Shown one piece after another: positions 2,298 through 29,516 of a stretch of DNA of 33,076 nucleotides (position 1 is the stretch's first letter; every line of letters begins with the position of its first letter). This DNA is from Verrucomicrobiales bacterium (GTDB lineage: Bacteria; Verrucomicrobiota; Verrucomicrobiia; Verrucomicrobiales; Verrucomicrobiaceae). The notes beneath the pieces were generated by a model, which saw nothing but the letters and a program-made list of their open reading frames with translations, had not been told where the DNA came from and did no database searches. The stretch lies in contig JAGRPD010000105.1 of the NCBI GenBank assembly GCA_020439875.1, positions 1-33,076 on the forward strand, given 5' to 3'. The position numbers were made by a program, and so were the translations under genes.

Positions 2298-3551
2298 TTA
2301 CGCCGCAGCAGGCGGTGGAGCCTCGCGGTGGGGGAGGCGGATGGTGAAGGTGGTGGCGCGGCCGGGGATGCTCTCCAGATCAATGCTGCCGCCGTGGGCT
2401 TCGATCGCGCGACGCACGATGGAGAGGCCGAGACCGGTGCCTTTGACGGTTTGGGCGTGATGCTTGTGTCCGCGGTAAAAGCGTTTGAAGACAAAGGGCA
2501 CGTCGTGAGCTGCGATGCCCACGCCGTTGTCGATGACGCGGATCACGCATTGATCCTTGAGGCGCTCTCCCTGGACGCTCACCGTGAGCTGGCGGCCCGT
2601 GTTTTCTTTGATGGCGTTTTCGATCAAGTTGGTGAGGATCTGATCCCAGTAAAAGCGATCCGCGACGAGGCGACAGCCGTCGTCGGGGAACTGGATGGCA
2701 AATTTGACGGTGCTGTCTTGCAACAGGGGGCGCAGGCGATCAATGACGTCTTGGACGCACTCCACCATGGAGAAGGTCTCCCAATTCAGCTGAGTGCCGA
2801 GGTTCTCCAATTTGGAAATGGTGAGCATGTCCTCCACGATGCGAATGATGCGGGTGCTGTGATTTTGCATCACCTTGAGGGAATGCGCGACGAGGGCGGG
2901 ATCGTCCAGGCCGCCGTCCCGCAGGGTCTCGATGTAACCTTGGATCAGGGTGAGCGGGGTGCGCAGCTCATGGGAGGCATTGGCGACGAAGTCTTTCCGA
3001 ATCTGGTCGGTCATGACTTGATCGGAAATGTCCTGCACCATGAGCCAAGCGCCGCGTTCGGATTCGGAGGGCAGGGGAGCGGTCTCGATGAGGCAATCTC
3101 TCGACGAGGCGGATGGTCGGGTGGGCAAGAGTCGGATCTGGCGGACGACGCGGCGAGAGCCCTGCAGCGCCTCACGCACGGTCTCGGCGAGCTGGTGATC
3201 CTGAGTCTCCTCCATCAGGCTGCGGCCACGGCGGATCTCGGGCCGGTGGAAAAGCTGCGCGGCGGTGCGGTTGGCAAAGCGGATCTTGAGATCGGGATCG
3301 ACGATGATGACGCCCTGACGGATCTCGTTGAGGAGGGATTCAAACAACCGCCGCAGGTAGTGCTCCTTGCTGTGGTCATGGGCGAGTTGGTGTTGCTGCT
3401 CCAGCAGGCGGAGGAGGTCATCTCCCGCCGCTTCGGGTCGGCCCGCAGCGGTGGCGAGACGTTGGGTCTTTTTCCGCCAGCGGCGATCCGCGATCCACCA
3501 ACCGAAGGCGAGCGCGGCGGCCGCCAGCAGCAGGGTGGTCAGAGGGCTCAT
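2298..3551 (-). CDS. phoR: Phosphate regulon sensor histidine kinase PhoR
   Basis: Membrane-bound sensor kinase of 417 aa. One N-terminal membrane segment (about residues 4-20) is followed by a PAS-like domain (about 67-180). The dimerisation/phosphoacceptor helix carries His194 in NASHELRTPL. The ATPase domain has an N box around residues 308-316, the G1 motif DNGVGI (341-346) and the G2 motif GTGLGLSIV (371-379). There is no large periplasmic sensor loop, as in E. coli PhoR, which reads phosphate status through PstB and PhoU. The start overlaps the phoB stop as ATGA (3548-3551), so the two genes are translationally coupled. With phoU and pst next door, the PhoR assignment is strong. Confidence -1.
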   Translation of the reverse strand: MSPLTTLLLAAAALAFGWWIADRRWRKKTQRLATAAGRPEAAGDDLLRLLEQQHQLAHDHSKEHYLRRLFESLLNEIRQGVIIVDPDLKIRFANRTAAQLFHRPEIRRGRSLMEETQDHQLAETVREALQGSRRVVRQIRLLPTRPSASSRDCLIETAPLPSESERGAWLMVQDISDQVMTDQIRKDFVANASHELRTPLTLIQGYIETLRDGGLDDPALVAHSLKVMQNHSTRIIRIVEDMLTISKLENLGTQLNWETFSMVECVQDVIDRLRPLLQDSTVKFAIQFPDDGCRLVADRFYWDQILTNLIENAIKENTGRQLTVSVQGERLKDQCVIRVIDNGVGIAAHDVPFVFKRFYRGHKHHAQTVKGTGLGLSIVRRAIEAHGGSIDLESIPGRATTFTIRLPHREAPPPAAA

Positions 3552-4237
3552 GCGTCGGGCGGATCGGAGGCGAATTGATAACCGGTGCCGCGCACGGTCA
3601 CAATGTGTTTCCCCCAGGCACCGAGTTTTTCCCGCAGGCGCTTGACGTGGGTGTCCAGGGTGCGGGTGGCCACGTCGTCATTGTAGCCCCAGACTTCCCG
3701 CAGCAGTTCGGCGCGGGTGTGGATGGCTTCCTGACTTTCGATCAGGGTGGAGAGCAGTTTGAACTCGGTGGTGGTGAGATCGACGGGCTCGTCGTTGAGG
3801 AAGAGTTTCATGTTTTTGCGATCCACCAAAAAGGGGCCGGCGCTCAGCTCGGAGACGTGCTGCACACGCTGGGTGCGGCGCAGGACGGCGGCCACACGCA
3901 GGGCGAGTTCGCGCGGGCTGAAAGGCTTGGTCAGGTAGTCGTCCGCGCCCAGCTCCAGGCCAGTGATTTTATCCACCATCTGACCGCGTGCGGTGAGCAT
4001 GACGACGGGGATGGAGCGAGTGCGGGTGTCGGCGCGCAGGGTTTTGAAGACTTGAAAACCGTCCTGGCCAGGCAGCATCAGGTCCAGGATGATGAGATCG
4101 GGGCGGGTCTCCAGGGCCTGTTCCTTCACGCCCAATCCGGTGTGCATGACATCGAATTCGTGTCCTTCTCGACGCAGATGGAGGGCGATGAGGTCCGTGA
4201 TGTCGGCTTCATCGTCGATGATTAAGATTCGGCTCAT
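3548..4237 (-). CDS. phoB: Phosphate regulon response regulator PhoB (OmpR/PhoB family)
   Basis: The product is 229 aa, the usual length for the family. The receiver domain has the acidic pair Asp9/Asp10, phosphoacceptor Asp52 in IILDLMLPG, Thr82 and Lys104 in TKPFSPREL. The C-terminal winged-helix DNA-binding domain contains LTTTEFKLL, the recognition-helix stretch TRTLDTHVKRLREKLG and the terminal hairpin VRGTGYQF. Phosphorylated by PhoR, it would activate Pho-box promoters for phosphate scavenging. It is the first gene of phoB-phoR and overlaps phoR by 4 nt. It diverges from the glycosyltransferase gene. A GTTAC direct repeat about 60 bp upstream may serve autoregulation. Confidence -1.
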   Translation of the reverse strand: MSRILIIDDEADITDLIALHLRREGHEFDVMHTGLGVKEQALETRPDLIILDLMLPGQDGFQVFKTLRADTRTRSIPVVMLTARGQMVDKITGLELGADDYLTKPFSPRELALRVAAVLRRTQRVQHVSELSAGPFLVDRKNMKLFLNDEPVDLTTTEFKLLSTLIESQEAIHTRAELLREVWGYNDDVATRTLDTHVKRLREKLGAWGKHIVTVRGTGYQFASDPPDA

Positions 4238-4290: not shown

Positions 4291-4308
4291 GGTAACGATC
4301 CTGTAACA
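4291..4308 (-). promoter_or_regulatory. Candidate Pho box upstream of phoB
   Basis: On the minus strand the sequence reads TGTTACAGGATCGTTACC. The pentamer GTTAC appears twice with exactly 11-bp spacing, the spacing of the two half-sites of a PhoB box. It lies about 55-70 bp before the phoB ATG and about 120 bp before the divergent glycosyltransferase gene, so it could serve either. The half-site differs from the E. coli CTGTCAT, so this is a pattern-based suggestion only. Confidence -1.
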
Positions 4309-4424
4309 TGGAGCGGACGCGACCTTCAATCTGAAACAAAACCGTCACACGAATGCCGTTGAACCCCGCGTGGCTCGGACGCTAGTGCAGCCATGGGACT
4401 TCCCCTTAAAATCACTCTGCTCGC

Positions 4425-5555
4425 ATGAGGCTGCTGCTCGTCTCAGACACCTACGCGCCCGATGTGAACGGTGTGGCTCGCACCTTGGCGACGCTCGTGG
4501 CGGCCTTGCGGTCACGCGGGCACGGCGTGATGGTCGTCACCACGGGCGACGAAGCAAACGCGTTTTGTGTCGATCATCGCACCGTTCCCTCGGTTCCCTT
4601 GCCGGGGTATCGCGGTTTGCGCGTGGGATTGGCGAGTCGGGGGCGACTGGAGGAGTTGATCCGCGAGTGCCAGGCCGATGTGCTCTACGTGGCCACCGAG
4701 ACACCACTCGGGCTGGCGGCGATCCGCGCTGCGGATCGTTTGCGGGTGCCGGTGATTTCCGGTTTCCACACCAATTTTCAGACCTACCTGGAGGACTACC
4801 ATTTGCCCGGTCTGGAGACGGTGGCGCGGCGTGTGCTGACCACGATGCACAATCAGACGGTGCGCACCCTGACGCCCTCTCACGACAGCGCAGATCTGCT
4901 GCGGGATTGGGGCGTGGATAATGTGGGCGTGCTGGGTCGTGGCGTGGATACGGCGTTGTTTGATCCGGCGCGGCGTTGTGAGGTGTTGCGCGCGTCCTGG
5001 GGTGCGGGGCCTGAGACGCCCGTCACTCTCTACGTGGGCCGCATGGCGGCGGAAAAAAACCTGCCCCTGGCGGCGCGGGCCTTTCGGCGGGTGCGCCGTT
5101 TGCGTCCAGATGCGATCGGCGTCTTTGTCGGAGATGGACCGCGATGGAAGGCGATGCAGCAGGAGTATCCAGAGTTTGTGTATGCCGGTGCGCGACACGG
5201 TGAGGATCTGGCGCGGCACTACGCCAGTGGAGATCTGTTTGTCTTTCCCAGCTCCACCGAGACCTTTGGCAATGTGGTGCTGGAGGCCTGTGCCAGCGGG
5301 CTGCCAGTGGTGGGATTTGACTACGCGGCCCCACGTCTCTTGGTGAGGCCGGGACGGAATGGCTGGCTCGCCCCGTTGGAAAATGAAACGGCTTTTTTGC
5401 AGGCCTGTGAGCGCTGGGCGACCGCTGAGGACCACGCCGAGATGCGGGCTACGGCTCGGGCCGTCGCCTCGGCGCACTCGTGGAGTGCAGTGATTTCACA
5501 GTTTGAAGAAGAACTCCTCGCTGCGGCTGGAGTCACGCTCGCTCAGGCGGCGTGA
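4425..5555 (+). CDS. Family 4 glycosyltransferase, probable diacylglycerol glycosyltransferase of the Agt/SqdX type
   Basis: Retaining GT-B glycosyltransferase, 376 aa. The N-terminal Rossmann domain begins LLVSDTYAPDVNGVARTL, and the second domain has GRGVDTALFDP (171-181) and the donor-binding segment YVGRMAAEKN (203-212). The EX7E motif is Glu279 and Glu287 in ETFGNVVLE. The sequence resembles the MgtA/SqdX/Agt group, whose members add a sugar to diacylglycerol or to a related acceptor. The next gene encodes a PlcP-like enzyme, and both lie between phoB and phoU-pst. I therefore infer production of phosphorus-free glycolipids during phosphate starvation. Sugar donor and acceptor cannot be read from the sequence; a mannosyltransferase of another pathway is the alternative. 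Confidence -1.
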   Translation: MRLLLVSDTYAPDVNGVARTLATLVAALRSRGHGVMVVTTGDEANAFCVDHRTVPSVPLPGYRGLRVGLASRGRLEELIRECQADVLYVATETPLGLAAIRAADRLRVPVISGFHTNFQTYLEDYHLPGLETVARRVLTTMHNQTVRTLTPSHDSADLLRDWGVDNVGVLGRGVDTALFDPARRCEVLRASWGAGPETPVTLYVGRMAAEKNLPLAARAFRRVRRLRPDAIGVFVGDGPRWKAMQQEYPEFVYAGARHGEDLARHYASGDLFVFPSSTETFGNVVLEACASGLPVVGFDYAAPRLLVRPGRNGWLAPLENETAFLQACERWATAEDHAEMRATARAVASAHSWSAVISQFEEELLAAAGVTLAQAA

Positions 5556-5608
5556 GTGCTGCCTCGGCGTCCATTTTTTCCGCACTCCCATCCCATTCCC
5601 TCATCATC

Positions 5609-6481
5609 ATGAATCCCGATCCCCACACGGACAAGGCTGTCAAAAAACAGAAGCTGGATGTCAAAACGGTGTTCATCTCGGATGTGCACCTCGGTGTGCC
5701 GGAGTGCAAATCCGCGCAGGCTTCCCACTTCCTGCGCAACACTCGCTGTGAAAAATTGGTGCTCAACGGAGACATCATTGATGCCTGGCATCTGCAGCGA
5801 TCGGGGGGGTGGAACAAAGGGCACACCCACTTTGTCCGCACCGTTCTGCGCAAGATGGAAAAAGAGAACACCGAGGTGATCTATCTGCGCGGCAATCACG
5901 ACGATGTTTTGGATCGCTTCCTGCCGCTGAAGTTGGAGAACTTCCGGCTGGTCAACGAGCACATCCACCAGGGCCAGATGGGTCCTTACCTTGTGGTGCA
6001 TGGAGATGGCTTTGACGCCGTCACGACCCATCACCCCTGGCTGGCCCACCTCGGAGCCGTGGGTTACAACGCCCTGTTGCGGATCAATCGCATGTACAAC
6101 GGCTGGCGGCGCTGGCGGGGTAAACCTGGATTTTCCCTGAGCCGCTGGGTGAAGCTGAAGGTCAAAAACGTCGTGAGCTTCGTCGGCCGTTACGAGCAGC
6201 AGTTGCAGCAGTTGGCCGAGTGGAAAAAGTGCCGTGGCATCATTTGCGGGCACATTCACAGCCCCGCCAACAAGCTCATCGGAGCCACGCACTACTTGAA
6301 TTCTGGGGATTGGGTCGAGTCCATGACCGCCATCCTCGAGCATCACGACGGCACCTTTGAAGTCATCACTTACCACACCTTCTGCGAACGGACAAACCGC
6401 CAGCCGAAGGGAGACGCTGACTCCGTGGTTGTCTCAAACGAAACAAAAATTCCAGTGGAAGCCGTGGAAACACCGGCCTAA
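5609..6481 (+). CDS. PlcP-like calcineurin-fold metallophosphoesterase (probable phospholipase C for lipid remodelling)
   Basis: The product is 290 aa with the full dinuclear metallophosphoesterase set: FISDVHLG (Asp25, His27), NGDIID (Asp55), RGNHDD (Asn96, His97), HGDGFD (His131) and CGHIHSP (His215, His217). The segments KLKVKNVVSFVGRYE and NSGDWVESMTAILEHHDG match, from memory, the PlcP group of alphaproteobacteria. These enzymes remove phosphate headgroups from phospholipids in phosphate starvation. Databases often label this group UDP-2,3-diacylglucosamine diphosphatase (LpxH/LpxI-like), which is the main alternative. A GTG at 5552 overlapping the glycosyltransferase stop could extend it by 19 residues; ATG 5609 is preferred. 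No signal peptide is seen. The glycosyltransferase upstream and phoU downstream support a Pho-regulon role. Confidence -1.
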   Translation: MNPDPHTDKAVKKQKLDVKTVFISDVHLGVPECKSAQASHFLRNTRCEKLVLNGDIIDAWHLQRSGGWNKGHTHFVRTVLRKMEKENTEVIYLRGNHDDVLDRFLPLKLENFRLVNEHIHQGQMGPYLVVHGDGFDAVTTHHPWLAHLGAVGYNALLRINRMYNGWRRWRGKPGFSLSRWVKLKVKNVVSFVGRYEQQLQQLAEWKKCRGIICGHIHSPANKLIGATHYLNSGDWVESMTAILEHHDGTFEVITYHTFCERTNRQPKGDADSVVVSNETKIPVEAVETPA

Positions 6482-6519
6482 CGACGTTCATCTTTCTTCA
6501 CGTCAAACGCATCCCCCCC

Positions 6520-7218
6520 ATGCACGACCATATCCTCTCAACCTTCGATCGCTCGCTGGCCCAGCTTCGGGACAAACTCCTGGTGATGGCCAGCATCACA
6601 CGCAAAAATCTCGATGGAGCCATGCGCGGCCTGCTGCAACGGGATCTCGCCCTTTGCAATGAATCCATCGCGGCAGATGAAGAAGTCAACGAGCTGAACA
6701 AAGCGATCGATCACCTGGGGATGGACATCCTGGTGAAGTTTCAACCTGCTGCACACGATCTGCGGGAGGTCATGGGATCGATCCGCGTGGCCAGCAATTT
6801 GGAGCGGATCTCGGACCAGGCGGGCAGCATCGCCAAGCGGGCGCGTCATCTCAACCAGCTGCCGGAGTTGCCCGAGCTGAATCAAATCCAGCCGCTGTGT
6901 GAACTTTGCATGCAGAATCTGGATGCTGCCATCGCGGCGTTTCGGGATGGAGACAGTGCTCAAGCGGAGGCCACTCGCGCCAAGGACAAGGAGCTGGACG
7001 CAGCGGAAAAAGCCTTTGGTCGTGAGATGCTGGACTCCATGGAGGAGGGGCGGCAGAAGCTCGAGGGCTGCCTGCACCTGATCTTCGTGGCCCGCATGCT
7101 GGAGCGCGTGGGAGATCACGGCAAAAACATCTGCGAAGACACGATCTTCATTGAAGACGCCAAGGACATCCGATTCCGCAAAAACAAGCGTCTCAGGCAG
7201 GATGCCAGCGCCAGTTGA
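6520..7218 (+). CDS. phoU: Phosphate-specific transport system accessory protein PhoU
   Basis: Cytoplasmic regulator of 232 aa made of two copies of a three-helix PhoU domain. Both metal-binding motifs are visible. The first repeat has ISDQAGSIAKRA after EVMGSIRVASNLER. The second has HLIFVARMLERVGDHGKNICED. PhoU links the Pst transporter to PhoR and restrains both uptake and PhoR activation when phosphate is plentiful. It lies 38 bp after the PlcP-like gene and 138 bp before pstS. In E. coli phoU is last in the operon; here it precedes pstS. Family assignment is very confident. Confidence -1.
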   Translation: MHDHILSTFDRSLAQLRDKLLVMASITRKNLDGAMRGLLQRDLALCNESIAADEEVNELNKAIDHLGMDILVKFQPAAHDLREVMGSIRVASNLERISDQAGSIAKRARHLNQLPELPELNQIQPLCELCMQNLDAAIAAFRDGDSAQAEATRAKDKELDAAEKAFGREMLDSMEEGRQKLEGCLHLIFVARMLERVGDHGKNICEDTIFIEDAKDIRFRKNKRLRQDASAS

Positions 7219-7248
7219 GGGGTGTTTGCGGCGGAGATGTGACAATTT

Positions 7249-7292
7249 GTTCACCCGCCCGTCATTGCCCGACTCACTAGCCAGCGCTTAAT
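7249..7292 (+). promoter_or_regulatory. Candidate pstS promoter with Pho-box-like repeats
   Basis: The phoU-pstS gap contains three TCA-cored half-sites at 11- and 12-bp spacing: TTCAC (7250-7254), GTCAT (7261-7265) and CTCAC (7273-7277). They are followed by CTTAAT (7287-7292), a possible -10 element. This resembles a PhoB-activated promoter, in which tandem 11-bp repeats stand in for the -35 box. The position, about 65-110 bp before the pstS ATG, fits. Matches are imperfect, so confidence is low to moderate. Confidence -1.
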
Positions 7293-7356: not shown

Positions 7357-8316
7357 ATGTTTCCACGCTGCACTCAATCTCTCCTGCTGCTGGCGGCTCT
7401 TGCCAGCCCCAGTTTCAGCTCCGCCGCTGAGGTGGATGCTGACATCAAGCCCTACGCTCAAGTCTCCGGTGTGTCCGGCAACTTGAACTCCATCGGCTCG
7501 GATACCCTCAACAACCTGATGACCCTGTGGGCGGAAGGCTTCAAAGCGCTCTACCCCAACGTCAACATCCAGATCGAGGGCAAAGGCTCCTCCACCGCTC
7601 CTCCGGCCCTGATCGAAGGCACCGCCCAGATCGGACCGATGAGCCGTGCGATGAAGAATGAGGAACTCGACGAGTTTGAGAAAAAATTTGGCTACAAACC
7701 CACCGAGATCAAGGTGGCTGTGGATGCCTTGGCGGTGTTCGTCAACAAAGACAACCCGATCAAAGGCCTGACCCTGACTCAAGTGGACTCCATCTTCTCC
7801 AGCACCCGCAAGCGTGGTGGCCAAGACATCACCAGCTGGGATCAAGCCGGTGTCTCCGAGTGGGCAGGACGCGCCATCAGCCTCTACGGCCGCAATAGCG
7901 CCTCCGGCACCTACGGCTTCTTCAAAGAGCACGCCATGAGCAAGGGCGACTTCAAAAACACCGTCAAAGAGCAGCCCGGCTCCTCTGCGGTGGTGCAAGG
8001 TGTGTCTTCCGACATCTACGGCATCGGCTATTCCGGCATCGGCTACGCCACCTCCGGCGTGCGTGCCGTCCCTCTCGGTGAAACCGATGGTCAATATGCC
8101 GAAGCCAATTATGAAAACTGCCTCAGCGGTGACTATCCGATGGCGCGCTTTCTCTACCTCTACATCAACAAGAAGCCGGGTGAAGCGGCTGACACGCTGA
8201 CCTCGGAGTTCATCAAGTTCGTCGTGGCCCAGCAGGGTCAGCAAGTCGTCGTCAAAGACGGCTACTTCCCCATCCCCGCTGCCATTTCGGAGGAGTCCCA
8301 AGCTGCGCTCAAGTAA
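7357..8316 (+). CDS. pstS: Phosphate ABC transporter periplasmic binding protein PstS
   Basis: The product is 319 aa, normal for the family. Residues 1-24 form a signal peptide (Leu/Ala-rich core, cleavage near FSSAA). The mature part has the PstS fold: SGNLNSIGSDTLNNLM at the start, IEGKGSSTAPPALIEG, the ligand-loop-like segment RNSASGTYGFF, and VQGVSSDIYGIGYSGIGYA. It captures orthophosphate in the periplasm and hands it to PstC/PstA. A separate candidate Pho promoter lies upstream and a strong hairpin downstream. That arrangement suits production of much more binding protein than permease. Confidence -1.
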   Translation: MFPRCTQSLLLLAALASPSFSSAAEVDADIKPYAQVSGVSGNLNSIGSDTLNNLMTLWAEGFKALYPNVNIQIEGKGSSTAPPALIEGTAQIGPMSRAMKNEELDEFEKKFGYKPTEIKVAVDALAVFVNKDNPIKGLTLTQVDSIFSSTRKRGGQDITSWDQAGVSEWAGRAISLYGRNSASGTYGFFKEHAMSKGDFKNTVKEQPGSSAVVQGVSSDIYGIGYSGIGYATSGVRAVPLGETDGQYAEANYENCLSGDYPMARFLYLYINKKPGEAADTLTSEFIKFVVAQQGQQVVVKDGYFPIPAAISEESQAALK

Positions 8317-8407: not shown

Positions 8408-8458
8408 CTTTTGCTTCCCATCAAATCACCCCGAAGGTTCCCTCTCCCAACCCTCTCA

Positions 8459-10774
8459 ATGCCTCCCCATCCAGCAGCCGACTCCACTTCATCGCGGCCC
8501 GTTCCGAAGCGATTTCTCGCCTCTTCTGGCACGCTTCGCCTGGATCGTTTCATGTCTTGGCTGATCCGGGTCGGCGGAGTGGGCATCATCGTGGCGGTGT
8601 TCGGCATTTTCTTCTTCGTCCTGATGGAGATCCTGCCGTTGTTTGGAACGGCATCGGTGGAAGCGGATGGGGAAAGGAATTCCGGTTGGACCGGAGCGGG
8701 CGTGCTGGGGGTGGATGAGTGGGCCGAGCGGCCGTTCTTTTTTGATGGCCGTTCCATGCATTTTATGGATTGGGCCTCGGGCAAGGAATCGACTGAGGCA
8801 ATCGCTCTGCCGGAAGGCGCGGTGGTGAGTTGCTGGAGCTTTGAAGCCGGACGGCAGTGGATCACGGTGGGTACTGCCGATGGTCGGGTGGGGAGTGTGC
8901 AGGTGAAGTATCAGCCGACGTTTAGCGGTGAAAAACGCACCATCACGAGCACGGTCTCAGTGGGTGAATTTACGCCAATGGGCCTGCCCGGGGTGAAGGT
9001 GGAAAAGGTGGCCGATGGTCACGCGGAATCGGCCCAACTGCTGGCCATTTTGCAGCACGACCCCGCAGGCAAACCCCATGTTTTTGTACGCTGCATTCGC
9101 GTCAAGCGAGGTTTGATGGGCGGAGGAAAACCCGCCGTGAGTGGGGAATTTGATCTCGCGCAGCAGGTCGGTGGCGAGGTGTCTCACCTGCTGGCAGGCG
9201 CTTCGGCTGACAGTTTGCTGGTGGTGAAGAAAGATGGGTCGGTGGACTATTTTTTCTTCGAAAACGGTGCGTCCATGGAGTTGCGCCAGACTTTTCAGCC
9301 CTTTGCAGGCAAGGCTGATGCGATGATCGCCAGCGCGGGATTTGTGTTTGGTGGAGGCTCAGTGGTGGTGAGTTCCATCGATGGAGAGCAGCAGGTTTGG
9401 AGCCTTTACAACCAAACCGTGGAAAAGCAGGGCAAGACCTTCCAACAACGGCTCTTTGGCAAAACCAAAGATCTGCCAAAGATGGATGAGGCAGGGGAAT
9501 TGTTTGCGGCGAGCCGTCGCAACAAGGTGGTGATGGCGGCTGCGGGAGACTTTGTCACCCTGCGGCACACGACGTCGGAGTCGGTGCGGTGGCAGGGGCA
9601 TGTGCCATTTGACGTGGCCAACATGGTGATGGACGGTAAGTCGGAGCATTTGTTTTTCCTGGATGGCCAAGGAGGGCTGCACCGCTACAGCTACGAAGAC
9701 CCGCACCCAGAGGCGGGATGGAAGGCGTTTTTTGGCAAGATCTGGTACGAAGGGGCTTCGGAGCCGAGCTACACTTGGCAGTCCACCGGAGGGACGGATG
9801 ACTTTGAACCCAAGCTCTCCCTGGTGCCGCTCATCATCGGCTCCCTGAAAGGCACGCTGTATGCGTTGGTCTTTGCGGTGCCGATTGCTCTGCTGGCGGC
9901 GATTTACAGCGCCAACTTTCTGCCGGGGAAAATTCGCAACGTGGTGAAACCGACCATGGAGATCATGGCCTCTCTGCCGTCCGTGGTTTTGGGATTCTTG
10001 GCGGGGCTGTGGTTAGCCCCATTGATCGAACAAAAAGTGCCATCTGTGCTGCTGGCTATTTTGGTGCTGCCCCTCGGCACGCTGCTGCTGGGCTGGGCCT
10101 ACACCAAGCTGCCCGTGACGCTGCGTTGCCGTGTGCCGCATGGATTGGAATTCCTGCTGCTCGTGGTGCCGCTGGCGATCTTGGTGTCAGCGGCTTGGGC
10201 GATGGGGCCGGTCATTGAGTCCTGGTTTTTTGTGGTGAAAGATCCTGGCACGGGCAAGGCGATCGCAGATTTTCGCATGTGGTGGCCGGAGGCGACGGGT
10301 ACGCCGTATGATCAGCGCAACTCTCTGGTCGTAGGCTTCATGATGGGTTTTGCTGTGATTCCCATCGTCTTCACCATCACGGATGATGCGTTGAGCAATG
10401 TGCCACCGCAGCTGCGAGCCGCGTCTCTGGCGCTGGGGGCCACCCGCTGGCAGATGGTGCGCACGGTGGTGCTGCCCGTGGCGAGTGCAGGCATTTTTTC
10501 CGCGTTGATGATCGGGTTTGGTCGGGCCGTGGGGGAGACCATGATCGTGGTGATGGCCACGGGAAATACGCCGGTGATGGATTGGAACATCTTCTCCGGC
10601 ATGCGAACGCTCTCGGCCAACATCGCAGTGGAGTTGCCCGAAGCGCCGGTGCATTCCACGCACTACCGGGCCTTGTTTTTGGGGGCGATGGTGCTGTTCG
10701 CGCTGACTTTTGTGTTGAATACCGTAGCGGAGATCCTCCGGTTCCGTCTGCGTGAACGCTTCAAACTGGTGTAA
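8459..10774 (+). CDS. pstC: Phosphate ABC transporter permease PstC, with large periplasmic insertion
   Basis: Inner-membrane permease of the Pst importer. The frame is open from 8411; the ATG at 8459 gives 771 aa, more than twice the 319 aa of E. coli PstC. After a membrane helix (VGIIVAVFGIFFFVLMEIL) comes a soluble region of nearly 400 residues. It is rich in short beta-strand patterns such as GRVGSVQVKYQ and DGSVDYFFFENG, and could be propeller-like. The permease core then follows from SLVPLIIGSLKGTLYALVFA, with the EAA coupling loop RAASLALGATRWQMVRTVVLP. Long PstC forms are known in other bacteria such as Pseudomonas, so the family call is firm. The role of the insertion is not known. 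pstA begins 2 nt after the stop. Confidence -1.
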   Translation: MPPHPAADSTSSRPVPKRFLASSGTLRLDRFMSWLIRVGGVGIIVAVFGIFFFVLMEILPLFGTASVEADGERNSGWTGAGVLGVDEWAERPFFFDGRSMHFMDWASGKESTEAIALPEGAVVSCWSFEAGRQWITVGTADGRVGSVQVKYQPTFSGEKRTITSTVSVGEFTPMGLPGVKVEKVADGHAESAQLLAILQHDPAGKPHVFVRCIRVKRGLMGGGKPAVSGEFDLAQQVGGEVSHLLAGASADSLLVVKKDGSVDYFFFENGASMELRQTFQPFAGKADAMIASAGFVFGGGSVVVSSIDGEQQVWSLYNQTVEKQGKTFQQRLFGKTKDLPKMDEAGELFAASRRNKVVMAAAGDFVTLRHTTSESVRWQGHVPFDVANMVMDGKSEHLFFLDGQGGLHRYSYEDPHPEAGWKAFFGKIWYEGASEPSYTWQSTGGTDDFEPKLSLVPLIIGSLKGTLYALVFAVPIALLAAIYSANFLPGKIRNVVKPTMEIMASLPSVVLGFLAGLWLAPLIEQKVPSVLLAILVLPLGTLLLGWAYTKLPVTLRCRVPHGLEFLLLVVPLAILVSAAWAMGPVIESWFFVVKDPGTGKAIADFRMWWPEATGTPYDQRNSLVVGFMMGFAVIPIVFTITDDALSNVPPQLRAASLALGATRWQMVRTVVLPVASAGIFSALMIGFGRAVGETMIVVMATGNTPVMDWNIFSGMRTLSANIAVELPEAPVHSTHYRALFLGAMVLFALTFVLNTVAEILRFRLRERFKLV

Positions 10775-10776
10775 CC

Positions 10777-12483
10777 ATGGCAACGGATCACAGCATGCAA
10801 AGCAAGGAGAAAGCCATGGCGGCCGGGCGGCGACCCGACTCTCAGCACGGCGAGCCCAAGGTTTGGCTCAGCGCGTTGGGTTTGACCGTGGGTTTGCTCA
10901 TGGTGGTGGGGTTGCTGGGATTGATTTTGATCAAAGGCCTGCAAGTGTTTTGGCCTGCGCCAGTGGTGCAGATGCAGGTGAAAAAAGCCGATGGCTCTGT
11001 CGAGACCCTGGCGGGTGAGATCCGGGTGATTCAGCACCGTCGCGATGCGGCGAAGGAAGGCCAGCAGATCGAAGAAATCCTGCTCTTCATGGGCAACAAG
11101 GATGTCTTTGGCAATGCCTTCCGCTACATCGACACGGCGCTCATCGAATCCCGCGAGCTGCCGAAAAACATCGTGGTGGCGGAGCGCATGGAGTATGGCG
11201 ACGGCATCTTTTTCCCCGTCGCGTTGAAGCGGGCTGATGGTGCGGAAGTGACAGCGGCGGACGCCGCCTTTTATCCGGCGCTGCAGGAGGAGGTGGATCG
11301 GGTGGCGGCCCTGAGGCGGGACATTGAGCACATCGAGAAAAAAGAGATCGGCCGCATCAACAAGGAGTTGCTGCAAATCAATCTGAAGCGCAAGGCTCTC
11401 GGTGCGGACGCACTCGGAGCGGAGGCACTCGGAGCGGAGGGAGACGCGGCAGCTCTCGCCGGGCTGGATGAGGAGCAGACTCGGATCCAGGCGGAATACG
11501 AAAAGCTGGCGGCTCAGGCGCGGCAGCTGCGGGATCAGCTGGGAGTGAGCACGCTGACCTACCGTCTGGCGGATGGCCAGCAGCGGGACATGAGCGTGGG
11601 CAATTTGGTGACGTTCGAGCGGCCCAACAACCTGGGTTTTGGTGGGAAACTGCTGGCGATGGTCAAGCACGGCTGGGCCTTCCTGAGTGGCACGCCGCGC
11701 GAGGCGAATACGGAGGGCGGCATCTTCCCGGCGATTTTCGGCACCTTTGTGATGACGGTGTTGATGAGCATCCTGGTGACCCCTTTCGGCGTCATCGCTG
11801 CCATCTATCTGCGCGAGTACGCCAAGCAGGGCTTTCTGGTGCAGGCCGTGCGGATCAGCATCAACAACTTGGCGGGCGTGCCGTCCATTGTGTTCGGGGT
11901 GTTTGGCCTCGGCTTTTTTGTTTACACCGTGGGTGGCACCATTGACCGATTTTTCTTCAGCGAGTATTTGCCGAATCCGACCTTTGGAACGGGCGGCATC
12001 CTGTGGGCTTCCTTCACGCTGGCACTGATGACGCTGCCGGTGGTCATTGTGGCCACGGAGGAGGCGCTGGTCGCGGTGCCCCGCGGCGTGCGGGAGGCGG
12101 CTCTTGCTTGCGGAGCCTCGAAGTGGCAGACCATCCAGCGCATCGTACTTCCGGGGGCCTTGCCGGGCATCTTGACGGGGGTGATTTTATCCATGGCGCG
12201 GGGAGCGGGCGAGGTGGCTCCGCTGATGATCGTGGGTGTGGTGAAGCTGGCCCCCTCGCTGCCGTTTGATTTTGAAGCGCCCTTCATTCACGCTGAACGC
12301 AAGTTCATGCACTTGGGATTCCACATTTACGACTTGGGCTTTCAGTCGCCGGACTCAGAGGCGGCCAAGCCCATGGTGTTTGCCACCACGCTGCTGCTGA
12401 TCGCGCTGGTCGTGATCATGAATGTGGCAGCCATCCAAATCCGAAATCATCTGCGCCGAAAGTATGCCGCCAGCACCTTCTGA
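10777..12483 (+). CDS. pstA: Phosphate ABC transporter permease PstA, enlarged
   Basis: Second Pst permease, 568 aa against 296 aa in E. coli. An N-terminal membrane helix ([17 protein letters not shown]) is followed by a periplasmic region of about 260 residues. That region contains a helical, probably coiled-coil stretch ([20 protein letters not shown]). The core starts near [20 protein letters not shown] and carries the EAA loop [21 protein letters not shown] and [14 protein letters not shown]. Within the extra region the pentapeptide [15 protein letters not shown] is repeated in tandem (about 11399-11445). It starts 2 nt after pstC and its end overlaps pstB1 by about 20 nt, so the genes are co-transcribed. 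Both permeases being enlarged suggests that the two extra domains meet in the periplasm. Confidence -1.
11399..11443 (+). repeat. Three-unit 15-bp tandem repeat inside pstA
   Basis: A 15-bp unit close to CTCGGAGCGGAGGCA occurs three times in a row and encodes the pentapeptides [10 protein letters not shown] and LGAEG. The unit is a multiple of three, so copy-number changes keep the frame and would only lengthen or shorten a helical linker in the periplasmic part of PstA. The first copy is diverged; the second and third are nearly identical. Confidence -1.
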
Positions 12484-13294
12484 TATCCAGACGACGCCGA
12501 ACGCAGGGCCGGCGGAGACGGGCCTGGAGCATCCGCTGAATCCGCGGATGGTCGAAGTCAGCGGTTTCTCGTTTTTCTACGGGGCCAAGCAGGCGTTGTT
12601 TGACATTTCCATGGACATTCCCGAGCGGGAAATCACGGCGTTGATCGGCCCCAGTGGCTGTGGGAAAAGCACGCTGCTGCGGAATATGAACCGCCTCAAC
12701 GACCTGATCGATGGCGTGCGTCACGAAGGAGATATCCGCATTGATGGCACCAGCTTGTATGATCCCACCGTGGAAGTGATCTCCCTGCGCAAGCGGGTGG
12801 GCATGGTGTTTCAGAAGTACAATCCCTTCCCCAAAAGCATCTACGAGAACGTCATTTTCAGCCTGCGCGTGGCGGGTCGGAATCGCAAGAGTGAGCTGGA
12901 TGAAGTGGTGGAAAAAAGCCTGCGTCAGTCTGCCTTGTGGGATGAGGTGAAGGATCGTCTGCATGACAGCGCCTATGGCCTCTCCGGGGGTCAGCAGCAG
13001 CGTCTCTGCATCGCGCGCGCCATTGCCAATCAACCGCAGATCCTGCTGATGGATGAGCCCTGCGCGGCGTTGGATCCGATCGCGACGCTGAAGATCGAGG
13101 AACTGATGCTGACGCTCAAAGAGGAGTTCACCGTGGTCATCGTGACGCACAACATGCAGCAGGCGCGGCGCTGTTCTGACCGAACGGCGTTCATGTACAT
13201 GGGCCGGTTGGTGGAGTTTGCAGAGACCACTCAGTTGTTTTCCACCCCCGCTGAGGCGGAGACGGAGGCCTACATCACGGGCCAGTTCAGTTGA
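12464..13294 (+). CDS. pstB: Phosphate ABC transporter ATPase PstB, copy 1
   Basis: Cytoplasmic ATPase that powers phosphate import. The ATG at 12464 gives 276 aa; an upstream ATG in the same frame (12422) lies deeper inside pstA. Motifs are Walker [10 protein letters not shown], the Q-loop segment [19 protein letters not shown], the signature [16 protein letters not shown], Walker [14 protein letters not shown] and the H-loop [12 protein letters not shown]. These are specific for PstB. It overlaps the end of pstA. The stop is 23 nt before the ATG of the second pstB, with which it shares the same motif order and most residues. Confidence -1.
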
Positions 13295-13317
13295 GATCCG
13301 CCACCTTTTCTTTTGCC

Positions 13318-14127
13318 ATGAGTTCAGCCACCGCAGATCCCGCCCCCACCGTGAGCGCTCGTTCGGTCGTGGAGACGCAGATTCGGTTTGATCGCGTCGA
13401 TTTCTGCTACGGCACCAAGAAGGTGCTGCACGAGGTCACGCTGGACATTCCGAAACAAAAGGTGACCGCCTTCATCGGGCCCAGCGGTTGCGGCAAATCG
13501 ACCGTGCTGCGTTGCGTGAATCGAATGAATGATCTGGTGCCTGGCGCGCGCATCACCTCGGGCCTTCTGACGGTGGATGGCATCGATATCAATCTCCCCA
13601 CCCAAGACATCACGGAGCTGCGTCGGCGGGTGGGCATGGTGTTTCAAAAGTCCAACCCCTTCGCGGACTCTATCTATCAAAACGTGAGTTACGGCCTGCG
13701 CGTGGCGGGAGTGAAATCACGAGCGGTGTTGGATGAGGCGGTGGAACGCAGCCTGCGTGGTGCGGCTCTCTGGGATGAGGTGAAGGATCGCCTGCATACC
13801 AGCGCGTTTGGCCTCTCCGGCGGGCAGCAGCAGCGCCTGTGCATCGCGCGCACCTTGGCCATCCGGCCTGAGATCATCTTGATGGATGAACCTTGCAGTG
13901 CGCTGGATCCCATCGCTACGGCGAAGGTGGAGGAACTCATCGTTCAGCTGAGTCAGGAGTTCACCATCGTCATTGTGACGCACAACATGGAGCAGGCGCG
14001 ACGGGTGGCGGATCGGACGGCATTCTTTTACCTGGGAAAACTCATCGAGTATGATGACACGATGAAGATCTTCTCCAACCCAGGAAAACTAGAGACGGAG
14101 CGTTACGTCTCAGGCGGAATGAGCTGA
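13318..14127 (+). CDS. pstB: Phosphate ABC transporter ATPase PstB, copy 2
   Basis: Second PstB, 269 aa from the ATG at 13318; a TTG at 13291 would add nine residues. Motifs are Walker [29 protein letters not shown], signature [16 protein letters not shown], Walker [14 protein letters not shown] and [12 protein letters not shown]. All catalytic residues are intact, so neither copy looks dead. The two copies are clearly paralogous, from a tandem duplication or a long-standing pair. They could form a heterodimer below PstC-PstA or be used alternatively. It is the last gene of the locus and ends 2 nt before the stop of the convergent rapA. Confidence -1.
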
Positions 14128-28243: not shown

Positions 28244-29374
28244 TTAGGGTTTTTGGGGTGCCTTTTCTTCGATCTGCTTGCGCAACCACGTCGAGGCATC
28301 ACCGCGCTCCACCGCGTCGGTGAGTTGATCCAGGCCGGGATGTGAAAAGGCGGGATACTTTTCCTTCATCTTCAAATACACCCGCACCATCTGCTGCGCG
28401 GCGGTGGTGAGAGCGGTGTTGGCGTCCTTGCCCTGAAGCGCGGCGCTCGCTCCGCCGATGACATAAGCGCGGAGCAGCTGGGAGCCGCTGCCTTGCACGG
28501 TTTTTTCCGCTTCTTCGGTCCAGGTGGTCACGGGGGCTGCAGGGCGCAGGATGGAGACCGTGGGGGATTCATCGAGGTATTCGACGATGAGGTTGGCCGA
28601 TTCGTGACCGGCTTCGGAAAAGGGATCTTGCAGGTAGGTGTTGATGGCTGGCACGATCTCGGCGCGCAGCGAGGGATCTTTGATGATCTCCATCAGGTGA
28701 TCAAAAAAGCGCTTCATGTCGTCTTCCCCCTCCTTGCCGGTGGAAGACGGGCGCAAGTGACGAATCGTAATGAGGTGATCCGCCATCACCGTCAGACCGA
28801 GCCAGAGCTTCAGAGGTGATTTCACCGTGACGCCGTTGGGAGCCTTGTCCACGCGGGTGGCCGACATTTCACGGACGATGAGCGGGATGGCATCCTCTTT
28901 CCACAGTGGGATGGAGCCGCTCAGAGAACGATCCTCTTTGACATCTTCGTAGATGCCCTCTCGATGCATCTGCGCCAGCTGGGTGAAGACCTGGGAGAGG
29001 CCCTCTTGCAGCGCCTCTTTTTTGGAGGCCGCATCCTTGGGGCTGTTGGCGAGTTTGAAGATGAAAATGTCGGCCCGTGCACGCTGGGATAGGCTCTCAT
29101 AGCGCACCAGCACGTCCTCGCTGTCCGGATACTTCATGATCCCGATCAGGGTGTAGGACAGGAGGTGCAGGGGAAAGCGCATGCCCGTGGCCTGCTGCAA
29201 CCAGGGGGAGCCATCGGCGGGCGGCAGCGTCCAGTCTCGCCCCGGTTCGTTCGGTAGGGTAGCCGGATCGGGCGATTCCGCAGCGGATCCGGCGGGCGTT
29301 TCATCGGCGGCAAAGACGCAGGGTCCGCCGGTGGCGAGGAGTAAAGCGGGGAGGCAGAAGTGAAGCAGGCGCAT
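28244..29374 (-). CDS. Secreted hypothetical protein, mostly helical
   Basis: The frame is open from 29428, but the ATG at 29374 starts at a clear signal peptide (MRLLHFCLPALLLATGGPCVFA), giving 376 aa. A Pro/Ala/Glu-rich stretch follows, then a helical body. Recognisable pieces are MRFPLHLLSYTLIGIMKYPD, DDMKRFFDHLMEIIKDPSL and TTAAQQMVRVYLKMKEKYP. There are no paired cysteines and no catalytic motif that I recognise. The family is unknown to me. The M20 peptidase gene follows after 15 bp, so they are co-transcribed, but no functional link is evident. It diverges from the zinc-ribbon/sulfatase pair by about 140 bp. Confidence -1.
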   Translation of the reverse strand: MRLLHFCLPALLLATGGPCVFAADETPAGSAAESPDPATLPNEPGRDWTLPPADGSPWLQQATGMRFPLHLLSYTLIGIMKYPDSEDVLVRYESLSQRARADIFIFKLANSPKDAASKKEALQEGLSQVFTQLAQMHREGIYEDVKEDRSLSGSIPLWKEDAIPLIVREMSATRVDKAPNGVTVKSPLKLWLGLTVMADHLITIRHLRPSSTGKEGEDDMKRFFDHLMEIIKDPSLRAEIVPAINTYLQDPFSEAGHESANLIVEYLDESPTVSILRPAAPVTTWTEEAEKTVQGSGSQLLRAYVIGGASAALQGKDANTALTTAAQQMVRVYLKMKEKYPAFSHPGLDQLTDAVERGDASTWLRKQIEEKAPQKP

Positions 29375-29516
29375 GAAGTAGGGCGTAGTGTGAGGAAATC
29401 TGGTGGCTGACGCAAGTGAGGAACCCAACGCAAATCGACGGCTGACAAAAATGTCAAAAATTTGGCTGGCTAGGGTTTACTAGACCGCGTTCCATCGTAG
29501 TACGTTGGAAGACAAA

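Follow-up and report, generated by a model that had tools for sequence, protein, structure and literature searches.

A glycosyltransferase gene and a metallophosphoesterase gene within the phosphate locus of a Verrucomicrobiales bacterium very likely form a phosphate-starvation lipid-exchange module. The two genes lie in a 33,076-nucleotide stretch of DNA (GenBank assembly GCA_020439875.1, contig JAGRPD010000105.1, positions 1 to 33,076; hereafter the window). Under phosphate shortage, PhoR-PhoB would activate the operon from PHO-box-like sites in the gap between phoB and the glycosyltransferase gene. The phosphoesterase, a member of the PlcP family, would strip the phosphate head group from phosphatidylglycerol, phosphatidylethanolamine and other phospholipids, yielding diacylglycerol and freed phosphate; the Agt2-type GT4 glycosyltransferase would then add a sugar from a UDP-sugar to the diacylglycerol, giving a phosphorus-free glycolipid. 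Glucuronosyl-diacylglycerol (GADG) would stand in for the acidic phosphatidylglycerol. The pair is conserved across the Verrucomicrobiae, and in Akkermansia the two enzymes are encoded by a single gene.

In the window, open reading frames and Pfam matches place phoR and phoB on the minus strand, divergent from a plus-strand series of glycosyltransferase, phosphoesterase, phoU, pstS, pstC, pstA and two pstB genes. The glycosyltransferase (376 residues; 4425..5555, plus strand) matches PF13439, PF13692 and PF00534, and the phosphoesterase (290 residues; 5609..6481, plus strand) matches the calcineurin-type domain PF00149. The most likely start of the latter is the ATG at 5609; a GTG at 5552, overlapping the stop of the glycosyltransferase gene, is a possible alternative. 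A sequence-only reading of this DNA had set a GT4 enzyme and a metallophosphoesterase between phoB and phoU-pst, as part of the phosphate locus. Pfam and homology uphold that placement, and gene order and PHO-box-like sites uphold the membership, but the interval it gave for two genes, 4425-7218, holds phoU as a third.

The phosphoesterase is PlcP-type and not LpxH-type, as judged from its identity, its distance in the tree and its signature motifs. In blastp alignments of about 245-260 residues (nearly full length) it is 41.6% identical to PlcP of Pseudomonas aeruginosa (PA3219, E 6e-65), whose gene is followed by the Agt1 gene, and 40.4% identical to PlcP of Sinorhizobium meliloti (E 7e-62), versus 24% to Escherichia coli LpxH (E 2e-5). 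The S. meliloti comparison protein, whose gene adjoins those for an acyl-homoserine-lactone synthase and a LuxR-type regulator, we take to be SMc00171/PlcP, given the make-up of the sinI-sinR locus. The identification fits, because we compute 47% identity between this protein and PA3219 and the published value for PlcP is 46% (PMC8528852). The window protein has the metal-site motifs DVH, GD, GNHDD, HGD and GHIH, together with GDWVES, a signature shared by 68 of 69 PlcP-side sequences and absent from the eight LpxH sequences compared. GNHD marks the PlcP side; all six proteobacterial LpxH proteins compared have GNRDF.

In a tree of 79 sequences LpxH is set apart (support 100/99) by a branch that is 3.43 changes per site long. 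Path lengths from the window protein are 2.7-3.5 to the two PlcPs versus 14.5-16 to LpxH. The point at which LpxH joins is not fixed by this tree (approximately unbiased test, p 0.57), so that rooting alone proves nothing and the call relies on distance, identity and motifs; it is on distance and motifs, and not on rooting, that the tree placement proposed in the sequence-only reading holds. A test of one clade containing the window protein and LpxH was uninformative, as it merely shifts the long LpxH branch.

That the phosphoesterase is instead an LpxH-type UDP-2,3-diacylglucosamine hydrolase of lipid A synthesis is scarcely credible. What speaks for it is a name and a fold: NCBI annotation calls many relatives 'UDP-2,3-diacylglucosamine diphosphatase', even the PlcPs of S. 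meliloti and P. aeruginosa, and among solved folds LpxH comes nearest, at about 20% identity, a match that explains the label and does not decide function (a PDB sequence search with the phosphoesterase gave no clear solved relative). Against it stand the low identity, the location in a phosphate locus and the NCBIfam LpxH models, on which the protein falls below cut-off (TIGR01854, 19.5 bits versus 190.35; NF003743, 35.2 versus 134). Moreover, the window genome encodes LpxI above cut-off (G000:C291; G, C and L numbers are our handles for genomes, contigs and loci). LpxI serves the same lipid A step, so an LpxH role for the window protein is unnecessary. A search of 57 genomes found LpxI in 54 and LpxH above cut-off in none. 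With LpxI present and no relative's LpxH above cut-off, the LpxH-type label is wrong here, just as had been proposed from the letters alone.

The glycosyltransferase, judged by identity and tree position, is of the Agt2 type and not of the Agt1 type. In blastp it shares 42.8% identity with P. aeruginosa Agt2 (PA0842, E 1e-91) and 34.5% with Agt1 (PA3218), and its catalytic stretch ETFGNVVLE is the same in Agt2. In our glycosyltransferase tree, which was built without SqdX, MgdA and Agrobacterium Agt, an Agt1-like clade excludes the window protein at 100/99, and Agt2 falls among verrucomicrobial sequences on the same side as the window protein. The Agt-type partner anticipated earlier is thus present as a relative of P. 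aeruginosa Agt2, outside the Agt1-like group. Agt2 and a relative from Acinetobacter baumannii nest within the verrucomicrobial glycosyltransferases (95/87, with L073 4989-6209 and L074 4001-5107), hinting at gene transfer between phyla.

Agt2 yields GADG in E. coli (PMC8528852), and we predict that the window enzyme is a glucuronosyl- or glucosyl-diacylglycerol synthase. A UDP-glucose-dehydrogenase-like protein is encoded, which makes UDP-glucuronate a plausible donor. The product would most likely be GADG, otherwise glucosyl-diacylglycerol, an assignment that we regard as evenly balanced. The best NCBIfam model, N-acetylglucosamine-phosphatidylglycerol synthase (NF053787), gives 153 bits, far below its cut-off of 480.

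How widespread is this arrangement? The phosphoesterase was found in 49 of 57 genomes of the order, whose members close to the window genome include Prosthecobacter, Brevifollis and Verrucomicrobium, and in 42 of 145 genomes of the phylum, mostly in the window's class. Of 80 named loci, 48 have a same-strand glycosyltransferase gene immediately upstream and 36 have pho/pst genes no more than 5 kb away, so that the arrangement is not due to chance. Other partners also occur. An operon in presumed Opitutae, a name that we infer from named loci sharing the same spaced arrangement, reads GT4, monogalactosyldiacylglycerol (MGDG)-synthase-like gene, diacylglycerol kinase, PlcP (L139), and the MGDG-synthase-like gene is also found in L136 and L127. 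All of these PlcP partners handle diacylglycerol.

Several further loci deserve mention in their own right. Some Prosthecobacter-like genomes have a lone plcP beside phoB-phoR (L049, L063, L176, L180, L185), most with a PHO-box-like site of its own. In L145 (G174) the last member of a pstC-pstA-pstB-phoU operon is a more distant PlcP-like gene, which has GTGAC-N6-GTCAC 61 bp upstream and no accompanying glycosyltransferase. In Parabacteroides distasonis (L075 4977-6898) the gene after a PlcP-like gene (48% identical) encodes a glycosyltransferase from a different family (MJ1255/VC2487), and in Mitsuaria (L085 3417-6483) a plcP homologue lies directly 5' of the polyphosphate kinase gene ppk1, close to a Ppx/GppA phosphatase. 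In Pannonibacter (L091 1869-3910) a divergent PlcP/LpxH-like phosphoesterase lies directly 5' of a ceramide glucosyltransferase and a GT2 enzyme, perhaps the same scheme applied to sphingolipids. The window genome also encodes an OlsF-like bifunctional acyltransferase (L246, G000:C178; 302 bits, below the cut-off of 620), so a further phosphorus-free aminolipid is possible.

In Akkermansia, glycosyltransferase and PlcP form one open reading frame of about 650-680 residues. The gene is present in 9 of 15 genomes sampled from the genus. The genus was recognised by the Akkermansia muciniphila mucinase AM0627, which genome G162 carries at 100%, and we assign G162 to that species because of this match. 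The A. muciniphila fusion is 44% identical to the window proteins in its glycosyltransferase half and 52% in its PlcP half, and its gene lies directly upstream of dnaK (Amuc_1406 in A. muciniphila; PMC11480725). In one member of the Akkermansia group (G145, L133 4197-6110) the PlcP half is intact and the glycosyltransferase half has decayed, with no Pfam match and no EX7E. Both domains also share one frame in L035, from a genome of another family. Long frames in L127 and L128 were rejected as further fusions; the GC-rich DNA there gives rise to spurious frames upstream, and the glycosyltransferase lies outside that reading frame. The strong coupling of the two genes, fusions included, indicates linked chemistry of the two enzymes.

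The pair also shares a regulatory element with other phosphate genes. Matches to the classical E. coli PHO-box consensus were weak in the window, and we used instead the lineage's own motif from aligned relatives. Their phoB-glycosyltransferase gaps contain GTGAC-N6-GTCAC, usually twice. This element occurs 32 times in 719 kb versus once in a reversed control, mostly 50-130 bp 5' of glycosyltransferase, phoB or lone plcP starts, and it is kept before the pair even without an adjacent phoB (L048, L050, L061, L062, L066, L067). Its period of 11 bp fits a PHO box. In one genome of 5.8 Mb (G010) the exact 17-mer stands at seven separate places, including those of a phosphate-selective porin, pstC, the phoB/glycosyltransferase gap (two sites) and a pstS/pstB pair; the backward control gave none.

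A matrix trained on 54 sites, with the window excluded, ranks 7239-7254, 4333-4348, 29442-29457 and 4292-4307 as the top four places in the window, and three of these are in the phosphate locus. The first, GTGACAATTTGTTCAC in the phoU/pstS gap (7239..7254, plus strand), scores 15.7 bits in the minus orientation, equalled by no background position. The second, GTGACGGTTTTGTTTC (4333..4348, minus strand; 12.4 bits), lies upstream of the glycosyltransferase gene and has one degenerate half. It is nearly the same as GTGACGGTTTCGTTTC, a site conserved just 5' of the likely ATG of the Akkermansia fusions. The direct repeat GTAAC-N6-GTAAC at 4292..4307 (plus strand; 9.0 bits with the window-free model) lies 55 bp from the phoB start, at the same position as GTGAC-N6-GTCAC in sister genomes, and is the sole GTNAC-N6-GTNAC in the window (0.13 expected). 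PhoB would be expected to bind at these PHO-box-like sites. The third-ranked place, 29442-29457, lies about 68 bp 5' of the ATG at 29374, the likely start of a predicted secreted protein with no Pfam match (28244-29374, minus strand), possibly a further member of the Pho regulon.

Three other explanations accept a PlcP-type enzyme and differ on what the pair is for. The glycosyltransferase might glycosylate phosphatidylglycerol, as P. aeruginosa GpgS does, with PlcP serving separate phospholipid turnover. GpgS is likewise a GT4 enzyme (PMC12713373) and its family supplies the best-matching model; yet the score is far below that model's cut-off, Agt2, which makes GADG, has the same profile, the genes examined around the pair include neither a deacetylase nor a flippase partner, and the Akkermansia fusion argues for diacylglycerol being handed from one enzyme to the other. 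We judge this quite unlikely. Alternatively, the pair may serve phospholipid scavenging or turnover, in which the freed phosphate is what matters and the glycolipid is minor or made to another end, such as envelope charge. The lone plcP genes beside phoBR are in keeping with this, as is the finding that glycolipids shield P. aeruginosa from polymyxin B (PMC8528852). The tight coupling of the two genes tells against it, and we consider it unlikely, if the least so of the three. Finally, the module could be expressed whatever the phosphate supply, its pho/pst neighbourhood being a matter of descent alone. Several relatives have the pair at a distance from pho/pst genes, and the ornithine lipids of A. 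muciniphila show no response to phosphate (PMC9981464). The PHO-box-like element before pairs that lack an adjacent phoB, and before the Akkermansia fusions, makes this very unlikely.

Some observations weigh against a phosphate-starvation lipid-exchange module, and we have allowed for them in our estimate of it. The PHO-box-like sites beside the window glycosyltransferase are weaker than those of its sisters, and some relatives have plcP with no glycosyltransferase gene next to it. Agt2 itself scores 135 bits on NF053787 and the window enzyme slightly more, each far short of the cut-off, so the acceptor could be phosphatidylglycerol. To these we add the unfixed joining point of LpxH. We found no lipid, enzyme or expression data for the organism or its family.

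The genes around the pair complete a phosphate sensing and uptake locus. The PhoR-type sensor histidine kinase (2298..3551, minus strand; HisKA and HATPase_c) is kept beside phoB and the pair in relatives, and the divergent PhoB-type response regulator (3548..4237, minus strand; Response_reg and Trans_reg_C) shares 61-72% identity with proteins encoded beside the pair in close relatives. Downstream on the plus strand follow PhoU (6520..7218; PF01895; TIGR02135, 170.8 bits versus a cut-off of 130), a PstS-type phosphate-binding protein (7357..8316; PF12849) and a block at 8411..14127 with pstC starting at 8411, pstA at 10777, pstB at 12422 and pstB2 at 13291 (PF00528 twice, PF00005 twice). Homology with relatives also supports the pst genes. 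PstC (787 residues) and PstA (568 residues) have long N-terminal extensions preceding the permease domain, and pstB is duplicated in tandem.

PlcP-Agt remodelling, PHO boxes before plcP and PlcP in a verrucomicrobium were already known. The P. aeruginosa system resembles that of the window in its PlcP (about 42% identity), in Agt2 (43%) and in PHO-box control. There, however, agt2 is separated from plcP and neighbours plcH-plcR, and the partner of plcP is agt1; in the window, the Agt2-type gene is the direct partner, it comes first, and the pair is set between phoB and phoU-pst, with the two fused in Akkermansia. Agrobacterium, SAR11 and Methylosinus follow the same two-step scheme, with adjacent genes in SAR11 and Methylosinus and PHO boxes reported before the plcP clusters. 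In these bacteria plcP precedes agt, unlike in the window, and a location inside a pst locus is not reported in the literature that we searched. The Agt1-like group with PA3218 is separate from the window enzyme. P. aeruginosa GpgSDF, which makes glucosaminyl-phosphatidylglycerol, shares a GT4 lipid glycosyltransferase of a related group and differs in its phosphatidylglycerol acceptor and its need for a deacetylase. LpxH shares the calcineurin fold and acts on another substrate.

The sequence-only reading had suggested the alphaproteobacterial strategy in a different phylum. Our results support this for a function that would follow from family and context, but it is not wholly new: a PlcP homologue, of the same phylum and family, is on record in a verrucomicrobial single-cell genome (Sebastian et al. 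2016, PMC4796936). The text consulted gives presence alone, with no glycosyltransferase partner, regulation, fusion or lineage-wide survey. PlcP is reported to be lacking in verrucomicrobial methanotrophs (PMC9239053). In the literature searched we found no report of an Agt2-type pairing inside a pho-pst locus or of the lineage PHO box, nor of a cluster with MGDG-synthase-like and kinase genes or of fused enzymes in Akkermansia.

Taken together, the evidence tips us modestly towards a broader proposition with two parts: that phospholipid-to-glycolipid exchange within the phosphate regulon, with a lineage-typical PHO box and an Agt2-type partner, extends across the Verrucomicrobiae, and that in Akkermansia, including A. 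muciniphila, a single bifunctional protein would convert phospholipid to glycolipid and thereby remodel, under phosphate shortage, the membrane of a bacterium of the gut mucus. The locus is also a clear example of a wrong database label, that of LpxH. The natural fusion, in a culturable and widely studied gut bacterium, offers a direct test of the hand-over of diacylglycerol from PlcP to glycosyltransferase. Published lipid data for A. muciniphila, in which ornithine lipids stay high at every phosphate level tested (0.02, 0.2 and 2 mM; PMC9981464), could be re-examined for glycolipids. A phosphate-saving lipid exchange mostly studied in Proteobacteria would be extended to a phylum common in lakes, soils and guts.

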